From positions 1 to 64,000 of the forward strand of contig JAHBVV010000024.1 in NCBI GenBank assembly GCA_019637335.1: a stretch of 64,000 bases of DNA, read 5' to 3'. Positions 7,535 to 23,746 of this stretch are shown in pieces (within the stretch, counting starts at the first letter, position 1; each line of letters starts with the position of its first letter). Under the pieces are notes generated by a model. That model made no database searches, was not told the origin of the DNA, and saw only the letters and a list, made by a program, of their open reading frames with translations. Source of the DNA: Candidatus Hydrogenedentota bacterium (GTDB lineage Bacteria > Hydrogenedentota > Hydrogenedentia > Hydrogenedentales > JAEUWI01). A program made the translations under genes and the position numbers.

Positions 7535-8851
7535 ATGTCTACGCTGAGTGTGATCATGATTGTGAAGAACGAGGCTGCGATGCTGGGGGAGTGCCTTCGC
7601 GGCGTGGCGGACATCGCGGATGAGGTGGTGGTGGGGGATACAGGCTCGACGGACGATACGGCGGCTATCGCGAAGTCTTTCGGCGCGCGCGTGCACACCG
7701 TTCCCTGGGAAAACGACTTCGCGCGCGCGCGGAACCGGACCATCGAACTTGCCTGGGGCCGCTGGCTATTGCACCTGGACGCCGACGAGGTGGTCGATCC
7801 GGAGAACGCGGCGCGCATCCGCGAGATCGTCGACACGGACACGGAATCCGATGCCGTCGAGGTGACGCTGGCGAACTACTGCAACGACGTCCGGGCGTGG
7901 CGCTGGGTGGCGTCGCCGCCCGGCAGCCCGTACAGCCGTCACTTTTCAGGCTACCTACCGGTAGGGTTGCTGCGGCTTTTCCGCAACCGCCACGGGATCG
8001 AATACCGCGAGGCCGTGCACGAAAACATCACGGCGAGCGTGCGGGAACTGGGCGGGGTGATACGCTCCTCCTCCATCCTGATCCACCATTACGGCTACGA
8101 ATGCGGGGAGGCGCGGCGGCTGGAGAAGGCGCATTTCTACTTGGATCTGGCGCGGCGCAAGGTGGCGGCGTCTCCCGAGGACGTCAAGTCCCTGCACGAT
8201 CTGGCGGAGGCGGCGCTGGCGTGCGGTGAGACGGGCGAGGCGGAGCTGGCCTGCCGGCGCGCGCTCGGGGCCGACCCGGCGCACGTGGGCGCGGCCACCG
8301 CGCTGGCCAATATCTGCCTGAACCGGGGCGATTTGGACGAGGCGCGTGCGCTGCTGATGTCGCTGGAGCGGGCGGGCCACACCGAGCCACACATCCAGAC
8401 GGCCCTGGGCGCCACGGCGCTGCACCGGGGGGCGTTGGACGAGGCCGAGCGGCGGCTGCGGGACGTATGCCGGGCGCATCCGCCCGCGCCGGTGGCGGCG
8501 CTGTATCTTTCGCGGGTGCTGGATTACGGGGGCGACGGCGCCGGGGCCCTGACCGTTCTGCGCGATCTCTCGGCCCGCATGCCGGCCCTGGAGGAGGCGG
8601 GGCGGCGCATTCGCGCGCTGGAGGCGCGCCAGTCGGGCGAGGAAGCGTATACGCGGGGCGAGGCGCGGGCGGCCCTGCGGTGTTTCGTGGCCGCGCTTCA
8701 GGAGGATCGCGAGGATGCGCTCGCGCACAACGGCGCGGGCGTCGCGCTGCACGCGCTCGGGCAGTGCGCGCAGGCGCGGGACGCGTTCATGCGTGCGCTC
8801 CAGCTTGCGCCGACCTTTTCCGAAGCGCGCCAGAACCTGGAGGTCTGCTAA
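7535..8851 (+). CDS. Family 2 glycosyltransferase with C-terminal TPR repeats
   Basis: 438 aa from the ATG at 7535; a GTG immediately before it (7532) is an equal alternative. Residues 1-110 are a GT-A fold of family 2: LSVIMIVKNEAAMLGECL, then VVGDTGSTDDT, then the metal-binding HLDADEV box near residue 82. The middle (FSGYLPVGLLRLFRN, VHENI) is typical of the SPBc2-like glycosyltransferase subgroup. From about residue 190 the protein becomes a set of TPR helices (for example AEAALACGETGEAELACRRAL). It has no signal peptide or membrane helix and is probably cytoplasmic. The donor and acceptor sugars are not evident. Its stop codon overlaps the stop of the convergent minus-strand gene by 4 bp. 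Confidence 0.88.
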   Translation: MSTLSVIMIVKNEAAMLGECLRGVADIADEVVVGDTGSTDDTAAIAKSFGARVHTVPWENDFARARNRTIELAWGRWLLHLDADEVVDPENAARIREIVDTDTESDAVEVTLANYCNDVRAWRWVASPPGSPYSRHFSGYLPVGLLRLFRNRHGIEYREAVHENITASVRELGGVIRSSSILIHHYGYECGEARRLEKAHFYLDLARRKVAASPEDVKSLHDLAEAALACGETGEAELACRRALGADPAHVGAATALANICLNRGDLDEARALLMSLERAGHTEPHIQTALGATALHRGALDEAERRLRDVCRAHPPAPVAALYLSRVLDYGGDGAGALTVLRDLSARMPALEEAGRRIRALEARQSGEEAYTRGEARAALRCFVAALQEDREDALAHNGAGVALHALGQCAQARDAFMRALQLAPTFSEARQNLEVC

Positions 8852-10278
8852 TCGCCCCCGTCCGGGTACAGGGTGGCCAGGCGTTCATCGATCTGCGCGC
8901 GGGTGGCGACGACGGGGGTGACCCGGCATCCGCTCGCGAGCTCCACATCCTCCATGGCGATCAGGTCAAGGGGGTTCACCATGGCGACCGTCAGCACGCC
9001 CTCGTCCTCGCGTAGCGGCAGGCAGTGGTGGAGGCGCACCACGTGCGGGCTTACCATCGCCAGGGCGCGCGGGTCGGGATTGGCTTCCCGCACATCATGG
9101 TACGGCAGCCGCAATTGCGCGGCGAGTATTCGGGCGACCAGCTCCTCGCCCGCGAAGCCGTGCTGCACCGCCAGCGCGCCAAGCCGCTTGTGCGGATCCG
9201 CCGCCTGCTCCTTGAGCAGGGCCTTGAGTTCCGGCTCCGTGAGCACCCCGAGATCAATCAGGATCTCGCCCATGCGTCGCTTGTGCCCGCGCGCGTCGAA
9301 GGCGTCAATGCCCGCGCCGTCGCGCCCGCCCTCGGCGCCGCCGGGCGCCGGCTCCCGAAGCGCGCGGATTGTCTCTTGCGCCGCCGCGTAGTCCTCTTGC
9401 AGCGATTCGAGGGCGGCGCGCAATGCCGCCGTTTCATCGCGCGCGGCTTGCTCGGCGAGGTGGGCGCGCGATTCCTCCAGCGATGCGGAAAGCGCCGCAA
9501 CCTGGCGGCTGGCCTCGTCGCGTTCCGATTCCAGCGCCGCAGCGCGCTCTGCGGCCTCGTCGCGCGCCTGGATGAGTTGTTCTCGTTCCGCGCGGGCCTC
9601 TTCGTCCTGCGCGCCCTGCTGTTCGAGGCGCTCGCGCAGCTGTTGGAGTTCGCTTTCGAGGTTGTTTGCGCGCTCGGCGGAATCGTCGCGCGCCAGTATC
9701 AGCTGCTCGCGTTCGGCGCGGGCCTCTTCATCCAGCGCGCCCTGCTGTTCGAGGCGTTCGCGCAGCTGTTGGAGTTCGCTTTCGAGGTTGCTGGCGCGTT
9801 CGGCGGCCTCGTCGCGCGCCTGGATGAGTTGTTCTCGTTCCACCCGGGCCTCTTCATCCAGCGCGCCCTGCTGTTCAAGGCGTTCGCGGAGTTCCTGGAG
9901 TTCACTTTCGAGGTTGCGTACGTGCTCGGCGGCCTCGTCGCGCGCCTGGATGAGTTGTTCTCGCTCCACCCGGGCCTCTTCGTCCTGCGCGCCCTGCTGT
10001 TCAAGGCGTTCGCGCAGCCGGCTGATCTCGTTTTCGAGGGCCCGCTGTATTTCTTCCGCCTCCGCCTGAACCGCGGCGAGGCGCGCTTCGTGATCGAGGT
10101 CGGCCTCCTCGTCCGCGCCCGGCAACGCCAGTCGGCCGGATTCCAGCAGCCGGTCCAGATGGCTCCGGGCGGATCCGATTTGCGCGGACAGCTCCTCGTG
10201 CGAGCGCGACAGTTGCGTGCTCCAATCGTCGATGAAGACGTTCAGGCGGGCGTAGATGTCGTTGCCATTTTCAGACAA
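8848..10278 (-). CDS. Coiled-coil protein with C-terminal MshEN (T2SSE-N) cyclic-di-GMP-binding-type domain
   Basis: 476 aa from a TTG at 10278, chosen because GGAAGGA lies about 8 nt upstream; an ATG 33 codons earlier has no such site. Residues about 80-250 are a coiled coil containing four near-identical 42-residue (six-heptad) repeats such as LESELQQLRERLEQQG. The C-terminal ~140 residues are an MshEN domain (PF05157). It carries two copies of the 24-residue motif, RMGEILIDLGVLTEPEL... and RLGALAVQHGFAGEELV..., separated by six residues, with the conserved R, LG/MG, G and final Q of the cyclic-di-GMP-binding form. There is no ATPase domain, so this is not a GspE or PilB motor. It may be an adaptor that couples cyclic di-GMP to an unknown partner. 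Confidence 0.88.
   Translation of the reverse strand: MSENGNDIYARLNVFIDDWSTQLSRSHEELSAQIGSARSHLDRLLESGRLALPGADEEADLDHEARLAAVQAEAEEIQRALENEISRLRERLEQQGAQDEEARVEREQLIQARDEAAEHVRNLESELQELRERLEQQGALDEEARVEREQLIQARDEAAERASNLESELQQLRERLEQQGALDEEARAEREQLILARDDSAERANNLESELQQLRERLEQQGAQDEEARAEREQLIQARDEAAERAAALESERDEASRQVAALSASLEESRAHLAEQAARDETAALRAALESLQEDYAAAQETIRALREPAPGGAEGGRDGAGIDAFDARGHKRRMGEILIDLGVLTEPELKALLKEQAADPHKRLGALAVQHGFAGEELVARILAAQLRLPYHDVREANPDPRALAMVSPHVVRLHHCLPLREDEGVLTVAMVNPLDLIAMEDVELASGCRVTPVVATRAQIDERLATLYPDGGD
9536..10040. repeat. Four tandem 126-bp coding repeats
   Basis: The sequence GCGCCCTGCT and its surroundings recur at 9611, 9737, 9863 and 9989, exactly 126 bp apart. 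Each unit encodes 42 residues, six heptads of the coiled coil. Copies differ by a few substitutions only, indicating recent expansion or homogenisation. Confidence 0.9.
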
Positions 10279-10391
10279 GGGAGAGTCCTTCCGATCCGGG
10301 CGCAATTCCAGCGTACACGCGATCCGGCCAACTTGGATTATAGAAAGGCCCGGGGGAATCGTCAAGGGCGGACGCAAACGCGCCGGCGGCC

Positions 10392-11462
10392 TCAGACGTA
10401 ATAGGTCCGGATATGCTTCTGGATTTCGCTGCGGGCCGCGACGCAGGGTCGAATCTGCATGGAGGACGCGATGTGGAGGTCCTCCAGCGCGATCAGGTCG
10501 AGCGGGTTGGCCATGGCCACCGTCAAGCGCTGATCGGTGAAATTGAGCGGAAAGCAGACATGGCGCCGGGCGAGGTGTGCGGGGATCTTGCTGAGGGCGC
10601 CTTCGCGCACAAACTCATTGGCGAGTACGACGTAGGGCAGGGAAAGCTGTGCGGCCAGCGCCTGCGCGATGGCGTCCTCGGTGGTGTAGCCCAGATCCAC
10701 CAGCAGCGAGCCCAGCGGTTTCCGGTGATCCCCCCGCTGTCGCTCCAGCGCGTTTATGAGCTGGCGCTCGGAGATCAGGCCGGCGAGCGTCAGGAGTTCG
10801 CCCATGGGCACGCGTTTGCGGCCGGCGGAGTTCGCGGCTTCCAACAGGCGCTGGTAGTACGCCGGTATCGAGGCGCGATCCGATATGGGCGATTCCTGAA
10901 CGAAGGCCTGGATGTCCTGGAACTTGATGCCGTCGCGCCGCGCGGGACCAGCCGATTCTGGCGGGGTCTCCGGCGCGCCCGCCAGCATTTGCAGCGCCGC
11001 GATTTCCGCCCGCTGCGCATCGATCATGCGCGCCAGGAGGTGGGTGTCGGGAAGGTCCGGGTCCGGTGCGTCATCCTCGGGCAGGTGGATGGATGCGTCC
11101 CTGCCCCGGTCCGGCAGCAGGATGCGCAGGTCGCGGACGACATTCTCGCCCAGGGCGCAGGCCCGGTGCAGCTGTGTGGCGGCCGTGGCGAGCGTGCTTT
11201 CGAGCTCGTCCAGTTGCGAGGCCATTTCCCGGAGGGCGCGCACGGGATCCAGCGGGGCCTGGCCGTCTCCGCCCGATGCGCGCGCAACGTCTCCGGCGCT
11301 GAGCGGGCGGCAAGCTTGCGAGAGTTCCACGAGGCGTCGGAGCGCGTGATAACTCTCGTGGGCATTCGCCAGTATGGGAACGGCCCGGTGTTGCGCCCGT
11401 GCGTTCCAGGCCGCGAGGGCTTCCTCCAGCATATGGGATGATAAGGGTTCTTGTTCGCGCAT
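10392..11462 (-). CDS. Second MshEN-domain protein
   Basis: 356 aa, ATG start. The N-terminal half is helical (for example MASQLDELESTLATAATQL) and not recognised. The C-terminal ~150 residues are an MshEN domain like that of the downstream gene, with motif copies PMGELLTLAGLISERQL... and PLGSLLVDLGYTTEDAI... In both copies the leading basic residue of the motif is proline, so nucleotide binding may be weakened or altered. The tail (FPLNFTDQRLTVAMANPLDLIALEDLHIASSMQIRPCVAARSEI) is nearly colinear with that of the other protein, showing the pair are paralogues. It precedes that gene by about 110 bp on the same strand, with no ATPase or secretion gene nearby. Confidence 0.85.
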   Translation of the reverse strand: MREQEPLSSHMLEEALAAWNARAQHRAVPILANAHESYHALRRLVELSQACRPLSAGDVARASGGDGQAPLDPVRALREMASQLDELESTLATAATQLHRACALGENVVRDLRILLPDRGRDASIHLPEDDAPDPDLPDTHLLARMIDAQRAEIAALQMLAGAPETPPESAGPARRDGIKFQDIQAFVQESPISDRASIPAYYQRLLEAANSAGRKRVPMGELLTLAGLISERQLINALERQRGDHRKPLGSLLVDLGYTTEDAIAQALAAQLSLPYVVLANEFVREGALSKIPAHLARRHVCFPLNFTDQRLTVAMANPLDLIALEDLHIASSMQIRPCVAARSEIQKHIRTYYV

Positions 11463-11606
11463 GGCTGCTCCACGGGCGCGCGGCGGCGCCTCCCCGACTC
11501 TCCCGGATTATAGGAGGCGCGGGCCGGCGCTTCAAGGGCGCGCGGCCATGGTATACTCCCGCATGAGGCGATTCGCAGCCTGGATCAGCGCGGAGAGGAA
11601 GGGATT

Positions 11607-13124
11607 GTGACAGAAGCGAGCGACGAGCGAACCATCGAGCGGCGATCTACGGCGCGGGAGCCCATTCACCGGCGCGTGGTGTTTTCGGGGGTTCGCGGCG
11701 AGGGGATGCTGCGCCAGGGCGTCGCGCTGGATATCAGCGCGGACGGTCTGCTGATTCACACGACCCAGCCGGATGTAATCGGGCGGCACCTCGAAATTGA
11801 GTTGCACTCGGGCGACGCCGTGGCTCCCGGCCACATTTCGATGGTGCGCGCGGAGGTGGCCTGGGTGCGCTCGCTGTCTGAAAAGAACCTTTACGCGATG
11901 GGGGTTCGCTTTCTTCAGGCCGCCCCGCCCACCGAAAACACCGGCGCCCGCTTTCACGTCGCGGGGCGGCAGGAGTCCGCCCGGATTGCGGAGGAAGTTC
12001 GCCGGAGCCTGGAGGCGGCCGGGCCGGGTGTCGAGTTTGAACTGAGCGCCGCCGCGCGGAATAAGCAGCGTGCGCGGAAAGCGGACCGCCGCAAGTCCCG
12101 CACTCTGGTGTGGATGTTGTTACTGCTTCTCTTCGCGCTGCTGGTCATGCTGCTGACCTGGGGTTTGCTCTGGCGGCTCGGCGTCGCTGGCAGCCCGCCC
12201 GCCGAGGCGGCGTCGGGGCCTGCCCTGGAGTCCGAAATCAGGGGCGCCGCGTGGGCTCTGGATGGACCCGAGGCGGCTTCGGCCGATCAATTGCCCGCCG
12301 ATCCTCCGGTGGAGGCCGCCGTATCGATGGACATGCTCGAAAGCGGCGATGCGGGCGCACTGTTGAGCCGGGGCGGTCATTGGCTCGCGGAAGGCGACTT
12401 CCCGGCCGCGGCCCGCGCGTTTGCGTCGGCCCGGGATGCTGGAGACGCCACGCCCGTGGAACGCTACCTCGCGGAACTGGGCGAGGCGGAGGCCCTCGCT
12501 CGGTCGGGGCGGACCAGCGAGGCGCTTGCCTTGCTGGAGCGCCCCTTCGGCGATCTCGCGGCGGTGCCGGCGGCATGGCGCGCGGTGCGCGAGGCCTTTC
12601 GGGATGGACTCCTTCTGGAGCCGGGCGCGGACGCCGCCCGGGCTCCCCTGGCGCGCGCCTTCGACATCGCGCCGGCGGGGGAATTGGCCGATGCCCCCAC
12701 CGCCGATCCGGTATCGGGCGCGGCGGCGGGTGACGGTGGCGCGCGGATCGAGGTGGACGCGGCGAACTACCTGCTCACGGTCCTGGTCGACAACGTGATT
12801 GAGGCCGTTTATCCGGTCGGCCTGGGCGCGCAGGATCGCACGCGTCCCGGAGAGTACACCATCGTGAACAAGATACGGCATCCCGACTGGTACAACGGCG
12901 GCGACGTGGTGCCCGCCGGGGATCCGGAGAACCCGCTGGGGTCGCGCTGGCTTGGCCTGGGTGATGAAAGCGGACCGACGCCGCTGGGCATTCACGGCAC
13001 GGCGGATCGGGAATCAATCGGGGGCAACCTGAGCCGCGGCTGCATCCGGATGCGTCCGTCCGATGTCGAGGCGCTTTTCGATCGCATCCCTATTGGAACG
13101 CCGGTCACCATTCGCGCAGGCTGA
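11607..13124 (+). CDS. PilZ domain - transmembrane - L,D-transpeptidase fusion protein
   Basis: 505 aa from a GTG with GAGAGGAAGGG just upstream. Residues about 8-115 are a PilZ domain with both cyclic-di-GMP motifs intact: RRSTAR (R13-x3-R17) and DISADG (DxSxxG). One hydrophobic helix lies at about residues 166-190. A periplasmic region with TPR-like helices follows (GHWLAEGDFPAAARAFASARD). Residues about 378-505 are an L,D-transpeptidase (YkuD, PF03734) domain with His463 (GIHGTAD) and catalytic Cys479 (SRGCIRM). L,D-transpeptidases make 3-3 peptidoglycan cross-links or attach proteins to the wall. The arrangement suggests that cyclic di-GMP sensed inside the cell adjusts wall cross-linking outside. 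The gene is divergent from the two MshEN genes. Confidence 0.9.
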   Translation: MTEASDERTIERRSTAREPIHRRVVFSGVRGEGMLRQGVALDISADGLLIHTTQPDVIGRHLEIELHSGDAVAPGHISMVRAEVAWVRSLSEKNLYAMGVRFLQAAPPTENTGARFHVAGRQESARIAEEVRRSLEAAGPGVEFELSAAARNKQRARKADRRKSRTLVWMLLLLLFALLVMLLTWGLLWRLGVAGSPPAEAASGPALESEIRGAAWALDGPEAASADQLPADPPVEAAVSMDMLESGDAGALLSRGGHWLAEGDFPAAARAFASARDAGDATPVERYLAELGEAEALARSGRTSEALALLERPFGDLAAVPAAWRAVREAFRDGLLLEPGADAARAPLARAFDIAPAGELADAPTADPVSGAAAGDGGARIEVDAANYLLTVLVDNVIEAVYPVGLGAQDRTRPGEYTIVNKIRHPDWYNGGDVVPAGDPENPLGSRWLGLGDESGPTPLGIHGTADRESIGGNLSRGCIRMRPSDVEALFDRIPIGTPVTIRAG

Positions 13125-22034: not shown

Positions 22035-22370
22035 ATGAATGATGAGTTGCGCGATACGATATTGGAGGCTATGGAACAAGGCTTGGATGCGCAGCTTCGG
22101 GCAGTGCGCCGGTTGCGCAAGGGAGAAGATCCCCAAGAGAAGCTACGGCCCAGAAAAGGTAGGTCGCAAGTAGATATGGCGTATGACATACTTTTGAAGG
22201 CCGGTCAGCCCCTTCATGTCAGTGAGATTCTGGAGCGCATTGACAGGGCCTTTGGGGTTGGCGTGGATCGGGAAAGCCTGGTCTCTTCGCTTACCAAGAA
22301 GGTGGCCCGGGGGGACCGCTTTGTCCGCACGGACAAGAATACCTTCGGGCTCGAAGGGGGCAGGCGATGA
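22035..22370 (+). CDS. HARE-HTH domain protein of the insertion sequence
   Basis: 111 aa from the ATG at 22035, with AGGAGA about 8 nt upstream. Residues about 1-40 are acidic and then basic (EKLRPRKGRS). Residues about 43-105 are a HARE-HTH winged helix (PF05066): DMAYDILLKAGQPLHVSEIL, VDRESLVSSLTKKVARGDRF and KNTFGL. The family includes RNA polymerase delta and ASXL domains, and has been proposed to recognise modified DNA. Its stop codon overlaps the start of the transposase gene (ATGA), so the two are translationally coupled. It may assist target or end recognition, but this is inference. Confidence 0.85.
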   Translation: MNDELRDTILEAMEQGLDAQLRAVRRLRKGEDPQEKLRPRKGRSQVDMAYDILLKAGQPLHVSEILERIDRAFGVGVDRESLVSSLTKKVARGDRFVRTDKNTFGLEGGRR

Positions 22371-23746
22371 GTCTCTTACACGAGTGGCTCGACATTACTG
22401 CCCGCTGGCGCGACGCTTTTACCCAGGAGCGCACTGCGGTGCGCGCGGTGCGGCAGGGACTGGGGTCTCTGGTATGTCTGGGGCGGCGCACGATCACGCG
22501 GGCGCTTTGGGCCTGTGGCCGGGAAAATCTGCCGTGGCAAGCCGAGTATCACCTGTACGGGCGCGCCAAGTGGGACCCTCAACAGCTTTTTGACCCTATT
22601 TGGGATGGGGCATTGCCCTTGTGCGGAGGCCCGCTCGTGGGCGTTGCCATCGACGACACCAAGCTGCATAAGACCGGCCGGTGTATTGTCCAGGCCTTTC
22701 ACCAGCGCGACCCCCTGTCCCCGCCCTTCCATACCAACCTCATTCTGGGCTTGCGCTTCTTGCAGGCTTCTCTGCTCGTGCCGCTGCACCACGCCGGCCC
22801 CTTCAGCTGCCGCGCACTGCCTGTGCGCTTCGAGGAGTCTTCCCCCGCCAGAAAACCCGGCAAGAGGGCAAGCGATGAAGACTGGGAAGCCTACAAGCAA
22901 AGCCGCAAAGAGAATAACCTCTCGACCCATTGCGTGAAAATGATAGGCAACTTGCGCGCCAGCCTGGACGCCGCTGGCGCCACGAAGAACATCCTGGTCG
23001 CGTCCCTCGATGGCAGCTTCTGCAACCGCACCGTCTTCGGGGCCGAACGCGACCGCACCCAACTCATCGCCCGCACCCGCAAGAATGCCAAATTGTGCCA
23101 TCGCGCCCCGGAGGGCTCACGGCGCTTCTATGCCCAGGAGAAATTTACCCCAGAGCAAGTACGCCAGGACGACACCATCGCCTGGGCGACCACGAAAATA
23201 TTCTACGGCGGCAAACGCCGGAAGGTCCGCTACAAGGAGATCAAGAACCTCTACTGGCAAGGCGGCGCGCGCCGACTCCCCCTGCGCCTCTTCGTCGTCG
23301 CTCCTACCCCGTACCGCAAGCGAAAAAGCAGCAAGCGCTACTACCGCCAGCCGGCTTACCTGCTTTGTACCGATATGGTTCACGCCGCCCAAAGACTACT
23401 CCAGATCTACTTCGACCGCTGGCAGATCGAAGTCAACCACAGAGAAGAGAAAGACACCCTTGGCGTCGGCCAGGCCCAGCTCTGGAACCCAAACTCCGTA
23501 CCCAAACAGCCCCCGCTGGCCGTCGCCGCCTACAGCGCGCTGCTACTGGCCGCCCTCAAGGCCTTCGGGCCCGAGCGAAATGGCAAATACGCACCCCTCC
23601 CACGATGGAGAAAGCACGCGACACGCCCATCGTGCCTCGACCTAATCACATTGCTGCGCAAAGAGATGGACGAACAGCCCCAATTGCTGCAACCACTCGG
23701 CATAAACACGTCAAGAACAAAAATGGCAAGCGCCGCAGCTGCGTGA
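22367..23746 (+). CDS. DDE transposase
   Basis: 459 aa, complete, starting at an ATG that overlaps the HARE-HTH stop. RNase H-fold acidic residues are visible as D-D in AIDDTKLHKTGR (about residue 95), D in ASLDGSFCNRT (about residue 214), and E in the FDRWQIEVNHREEKDTLGVG segment (about residues 355-361). That last segment, with the Y-x-RW-x-IE style, fits IS4-superfamily enzymes including the IS701-like group. It spans nearly the whole element and stops 1 bp before the right inverted repeat, so the copy looks intact and possibly active. Confidence 0.9.
   Translation: MSLLHEWLDITARWRDAFTQERTAVRAVRQGLGSLVCLGRRTITRALWACGRENLPWQAEYHLYGRAKWDPQQLFDPIWDGALPLCGGPLVGVAIDDTKLHKTGRCIVQAFHQRDPLSPPFHTNLILGLRFLQASLLVPLHHAGPFSCRALPVRFEESSPARKPGKRASDEDWEAYKQSRKENNLSTHCVKMIGNLRASLDAAGATKNILVASLDGSFCNRTVFGAERDRTQLIARTRKNAKLCHRAPEGSRRFYAQEKFTPEQVRQDDTIAWATTKIFYGGKRRKVRYKEIKNLYWQGGARRLPLRLFVVAPTPYRKRKSSKRYYRQPAYLLCTDMVHAAQRLLQIYFDRWQIEVNHREEKDTLGVGQAQLWNPNSVPKQPPLAVAAYSALLLAALKAFGPERNGKYAPLPRWRKHATRPSCLDLITLLRKEMDEQPQLLQPLGINTSRTKMASAAAA

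Follow-up and report, generated by a model that had tools for sequence, protein, structure and literature searches.

A PilZ–L,D-transpeptidase fusion protein conserved in Hydrogenedentota and its predicted link to cyclic di-GMP

Can a cytoplasmic second messenger act on an enzyme that modifies peptidoglycan on the other side of the inner membrane? The question is raised by one gene of Candidatus Hydrogenedentota, found in a contiguous stretch of 64,000 nucleotides (the window; contig JAHBVV010000024.1) that lies in a 7.16 Mb genome. It encodes a PilZ domain and a YkuD-type L,D-transpeptidase domain on a single chain. Known targets of cyclic di-GMP (c-di-GMP) include exopolysaccharide, pili, flagella, and transcription. 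An earlier note on this DNA had suggested that c-di-GMP directly controls peptidoglycan cross-linking here, and knew of no described mechanism of this kind. Our search of the open-access literature agrees on the latter point, as it yielded neither a description of the PilZ-YkuD architecture nor any fusion of a c-di-GMP receptor with an enzyme that modifies peptidoglycan. The receptor domain, the enzyme domain, and the kind of layout are all known; their combination is new and is conserved in one phylum. Members of the phylum are predicted Gram-negatives whose peptidoglycan contains meso-DAP (PMC11406978), hence a periplasm and a substrate for L,D-transpeptidases are to be expected.

The fusion gene occupies positions 11607..13124 of the forward strand (505 amino acids, stop codon included in the interval) and starts with GTG, preceded by a purine-rich ribosome site; all its parts are given on the same strand. 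Residues 11–111 (11637..11939) match the PilZ family PF07238 with 32.4 bits against a cut-off of 22.5 and contain both ligand motifs, RxxxR (R13 and R17; 11643..11657) and DxSxxG (D42, S44, and G47; 11730..11747). A single transmembrane helix at approximately residues 165–190 (12099..12176), recognized by hydropathy and charge count and modeled as a helix over residues 148–191, is followed by a predicted periplasmic linker (residues 191–246; 12177..12344) and a TPR-like helical domain (approximately residues 247–346; 12345..12644) with pLDDT mostly 84–96 and with TPR matches in Pfam for some orthologs. The C-terminal YkuD domain (residues 380–502; 12744..13112) matches PF03734 with 71.7 bits (cut-off 23.4). 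Its catalytic His463 (12993..12995) and Cys479 (13041..13043) form part of the site H463...S-R-G-C479-I-R481, with the same spacing from His to Cys as in Bacillus subtilis YkuD. By profile and by the H...S-x-G-C-[IV]-R site this part is assigned to the PF03734 L,D-transpeptidases, its reaction being predicted; by profile, motifs, and fold the PilZ domain is a predicted c-di-GMP-binding receptor. DotU was rejected as an additional assignment: it is a weak Pfam match, below the cut-off, in only two of 20 members. The TPR-like domain and the c-di-GMP-related neighbors described below were absent from the earlier note.

The architecture, which the earlier note proposed to seek in domain databases, recurs throughout much of the phylum. 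A profile of 20 aligned orthologs, run against 68 Hydrogenedentota genomes, found PilZ and YkuD sharing an open frame in at least 28 of them; these represent eight family-level groups, and the count, taken from the profile-search rows, includes three degenerate copies from one genus. Four further genomes have fragments of the fusion at contig ends, and in the same search the fusion was not seen in groups f6, f7, and f11. The 20 aligned orthologs share 27–49% identity with the window protein, and each matches both Pfam families (PilZ at E ≤ 0.01). R13, R17, S44, and G47 are invariant among them, and the position of D42 is occupied by D in 17, N in two, and E in one. The PilZ stretch of the alignment spans 104 columns, six of which are invariant, and four of the five ligand residues fall in these six (hypergeometric p = 1.6e-5, which ignores shared ancestry and is a guide only). 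On the enzyme side, His463 is invariant, and 19 of the 20 orthologs have Cys479. In the exception, L008 from genome G023, Tyr replaces Cys479 while the rest of the fusion is intact; this is possibly a sequencing error, or the copy may be inactive. Pfam matches, motifs, structural models, and ortholog conservation therefore all uphold the initial observation that complete PilZ and YkuD sites are present on one chain.

Among the matches listed for 392 Planctomycetota genomes, with three candidates scored per genome, there is no PilZ-YkuD fusion. YkuD matches occur in 285 of these genomes, and none of those listed starts before profile position 259, which leaves the PilZ part unaligned. One candidate from Planctomycetaceae (L056) was rejected as a fusion, being an ordinary TM-LysM-YkuD protein. 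In the YkuD tree, the domains of the fusions stand apart from the LysM-containing Hydrogenedentota paralogs, with the deep branches lacking resolution, a pattern compatible with one origin of the fusion or with several.

The fold and the topology were addressed with AlphaFold2, run on the 20-ortholog alignment (mean pLDDT of 73 for the full-length protein and 77.5 for the PilZ domain modeled separately), and with Foldseek searches of the resulting models. The best match of the full model is B. subtilis YkuD. The PilZ model has the PilZ beta-barrel fold, and its top matches (E about 3e-4, TM 0.5–0.6) are PilZ domains of the BcsA cellulose synthase and of Pseudomonas aeruginosa proteins; several of these structures, including those of BcsA, PA0012, and Alg44, were solved with c-di-GMP. 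BcsA is the closest solved PilZ domain both by fold and by sequence profile, the latter match being weak (E 0.16). Hydropathy indicates one dominant hydrophobic stretch in each of the 20 orthologs. In the window protein, the N-terminal flank of the helix has a net charge of +8 vs. +1 for the C-terminal flank, and the N-terminal flank is generally the more positive one across the orthologs (n = 20). Because there is a single helix with positive-inside flanks, PilZ is predicted to be cytoplasmic and YkuD periplasmic. The prediction thus places the two domains on opposite sides of the membrane, as had been claimed.

The promoter region of the gene is conserved as well. An extended –10 element, TGGTATACT (11549..11557, forward strand), is located 58 bases 5' of the start codon and is the only copy in the window, with 0.03 expected. 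The ortholog regions, 276 kb in total, contain 13 copies of this 9-mer, each at the fusion gene and on its strand, and the relaxed form TGNTATA[AC]T precedes the fusion gene in 17 of 19 regions. The exact 9-mer appears to be better conserved than promoter function requires and may reflect either promoter strength alone or the action of a regulator. A consensus scan detected a sigma-70-like promoter, TTGAAG-17-TATAAT (11507..11535, reverse strand, 10 of 12 matches), for two divergently transcribed genes; about 50 bases or less separate the –10 elements of the two directions.

Both divergent genes encode proteins with a C-terminal MshEN domain (PF05157). The nearer one (10392..11462, reverse strand) codes for a protein of 356 amino acids (60.1 bits), and the farther one (8848..10377, reverse strand) for a coiled-coil protein (64.9 bits). 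MshEN binds c-di-GMP via two 24-residue motifs, which are five residues apart in Vibrio cholerae MshE (PMC5013675). The farther protein has the motifs RMG...Q and RLG...Q, six residues apart; in the nearer protein, P replaces the first R of both motifs, a substitution permitted by the relaxed MshEN search pattern (PMC5013675). The interval 8848-11462 holds tandem genes for two MshEN proteins that stand alone, with no ATPase domain attached; one is R-type and the other P-type, possibly a pair with different affinities for c-di-GMP. Elsewhere in the window, positions 22367-23746 contain a DDE_5-type transposase-like open reading frame.

A divergent MshEN gene is present at nine of the 20 loci, the window included (groups f1, f3, f8, f9, and f10). 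At three other loci, all from group f4, the fusion gene is head-to-head with a gene for an HD-GYP-like protein (L104:3775-4650, L109:7731-8909, and L113:2422-3249); the GYP motif is kept in these proteins, and the HD dyad reads RD in two of the three, with loss of His. The remaining eight loci have no c-di-GMP-related neighbor among the open reading frames examined. At 12 of 20 loci, a gene for a YihY/BrkB-family membrane protein with a C-terminal extension lies directly downstream in the same direction, often nearly touching the fusion gene (for example L098:5663-7195, L106:8874-10412, and L112:7809-9383). Five of the 12 were assigned by a Pfam scan and the other seven were joined to them by BLAST. 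In the window genome this gene is missing at the fusion and a copy is found at G000:C2:82494-83504. The literature search gave nothing useful on the function of YihY/BrkB as a partner.

At the level of whole genomes, the window genome has 15 GGDEF matches at E ≤ 1e-10 (17 at a looser cut-off), 11 PilZ matches, and 17 MshEN matches. Genomes carrying the fusion have a median of 9.5 GGDEF genes vs. 5.5 in non-carriers, and 1.91 vs. 1.30 GGDEF genes per Mb (p 9e-4, with ancestry ignored and the carrier list compiled by hand from the profile-search rows). An Rfam scan detected no c-di-GMP riboswitch upstream of the fusion gene. Taken together, the invariant ligand motif, at least 15 GGDEF proteins, and the MshEN and HD-GYP-like neighbors indirectly support c-di-GMP as the probable input. 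The same genome encodes a second L,D-transpeptidase with the layout TM-TPR-LysM-YkuD (L117:6541-7797). Its gene stands between a Ser/Thr-kinase-like gene on the upstream side and a GGDEF (diguanylate cyclase) gene on the downstream side (L117:6541-9577, corresponding to G000:C9:76540-79576), and coordinate comparison indicates that many Hydrogenedentota genomes share the pairing of this transpeptidase gene with GGDEF. Thus, both types of L,D-transpeptidases in Hydrogenedentota are tied to c-di-GMP genes.

How could a receptor in the cytoplasm influence an enzyme in the periplasm? PilZ domains are known to act either by local conformational release, as in BcsA, or via partners. We propose, at an even chance of being right, that the protein is an L,D-transpeptidase anchored in the inner membrane, with a built-in cytoplasmic c-di-GMP receptor that controls it through clustering, recruitment, or positioning. 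In this scenario, (i) c-di-GMP would bind at R13, R17, D42, S44, and G47; (ii) binding would alter the clustering of the fusion or its membrane contacts, the candidate partners being the MshEN proteins of the divergent genes, the YihY/BrkB-type protein whose gene is adjacent in many relatives, or the fusion itself; (iii) the tethered TPR-YkuD part would thereby be positioned or concentrated at particular places of the peptidoglycan; and (iv) the YkuD domain would there make 3-3 cross-links or attach proteins to meso-DAP. The chemical output may be any of 3-3 links, protein attachment, or trimming.

A more direct route would be gating across the membrane, in which c-di-GMP on PilZ dimerizes or twists the helix and so opens or closes the YkuD site. 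Both conserved sites are on the same chain and are joined by a single helix, and in BcsA autoinhibition is relieved by the PilZ domain (reviewed in PMC12564702). We nevertheless regard gating as unlikely, since the segments through which a signal would have to pass are not well suited to it. The segment between PilZ and the helix varies from 27 to 67 residues across orthologs and is poorly conserved; the linker between the helix and the TPR-like domain comprises 25–71 residues with 23% column identity, and pLDDT is below 50 over residues 195–244 (from an alignment of 20 sequences, and not proof of disorder). An additional low-confidence linker separates the TPR-like domain from YkuD in the model. 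Because the segments flanking the membrane look flexible, variable, and poorly conserved, positioning is favored over gating, and regulation through the location or oligomeric state of the protein is, judging from the models, more likely than a conformational signal through the helix. Of the direct control suggested in the earlier note, the c-di-GMP input is thus supported indirectly, whereas the linkers fit recruitment or clustering better.

The PilZ domain could also be a docking module that places a constitutive L,D-transpeptidase independently of c-di-GMP. The P. aeruginosa PilZ protein itself is a docking module independent of c-di-GMP. The degenerate copies speak for this possibility: in a single genus (genomes G065-G067; L076, L079, and L080) both PilZ motifs are gone, yet the gene persists with an intact YkuD site, and no Pfam match was obtained in the N-terminal part of the two copies scanned. 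The receptor is thus dispensable in at least one lineage, which qualifies the claim of a PilZ-controlled enzyme even though both sites are conserved elsewhere. As a general account, however, docking is improbable, because it leaves unexplained the invariance of R13, R17, S44, and G47 in 20 divergent orthologs and also the c-di-GMP-related genes in the neighborhood. The fusions of this genus provide a natural control for the need of PilZ input.

A reversed flow of information is highly improbable. Here, the periplasmic TPR-YkuD part would sense the state of peptidoglycan or its cross-linking, and PilZ would report it, for example through sequestration of c-di-GMP or contact with MshEN proteins. 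The MshEN and HD-GYP-like neighbors could form the receiving side, and one ortholog lacks the catalytic Cys; but the retention of this residue in the other 19 of 20 implies that catalysis matters, and PilZ domains usually act as effectors. Finally, an assembly artefact or chance fusion has a vanishingly small probability: no point in its favor was found, although many of the genomes are MAGs; independently assembled genomes, at least 28 in number, have the frame continuous, the promoter element is conserved at the gene, and recurrence across the phylum rules out a chance or frameshift origin.

Returning to the preferred reading, an anchored enzyme controlled through its position or clustering, the fusion probably links lifestyle signaling to remodeling of the cell wall. 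The stronger form of this statement, that binding of c-di-GMP by PilZ switches the L,D-transpeptidase or determines its position and thereby makes 3-3 cross-linking, or the attachment of proteins to the wall, follow the decision between motile and sessile life, is possible, at slightly less than an even chance. Such control, if true, would constitute a direct and genetically separable route from a second messenger to cross-linking of the wall and would offer a reason for some bacteria to keep L,D-transpeptidases in reserve.

Each part of the proposed system has a counterpart among known proteins. The YkuD-family L,D-transpeptidases, such as B. subtilis YkuD and the TM-LysM-YkuD proteins of Hydrogenedentota and related phyla, share the catalytic domain and its His/Cys/Arg site; unlike the fusion, those examined have LysM or no extra recognized domain and are devoid of a cytoplasmic receptor. 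In BcsA, as proposed here, a PilZ domain controls a membrane enzyme, but both the PilZ and the catalytic domain of BcsA are cytoplasmic and in contact with each other. The closest link between c-di-GMP and peptidoglycan found in the open-access literature is the RgsP-RgsM system of Sinorhizobium meliloti, where an active phosphodiesterase with GGDEF and EAL domains works with a periplasmic peptidoglycan protein and depletion changes the muropeptides (PMC6107284). In contrast to the fusion, this system consists of two proteins with a metallopeptidase-type partner and lacks PilZ and transpeptidase domains, and the altered 3-3 links may be an indirect effect.

The closest counterpart in layout is Alg44, the alginate co-polymerase of P. 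aeruginosa. It has an N-terminal cytoplasmic PilZ domain with RxxxR and DxSxxG motifs and a periplasmic C-terminal part, with a membrane helix between them. The same layout of an N-terminal PilZ domain, one helix, and a periplasmic C-terminus is predicted for all 20 fusion orthologs, a likeness of layout only. The output of Alg44 requires c-di-GMP binding (PMC12564702). The fusion is no Alg44, as the membrane-fusion-protein domain is absent from it and TPR-like and YkuD domains are present instead: where the C-terminal part of Alg44 serves polysaccharide export, that of the fusion is a predicted peptidoglycan enzyme.
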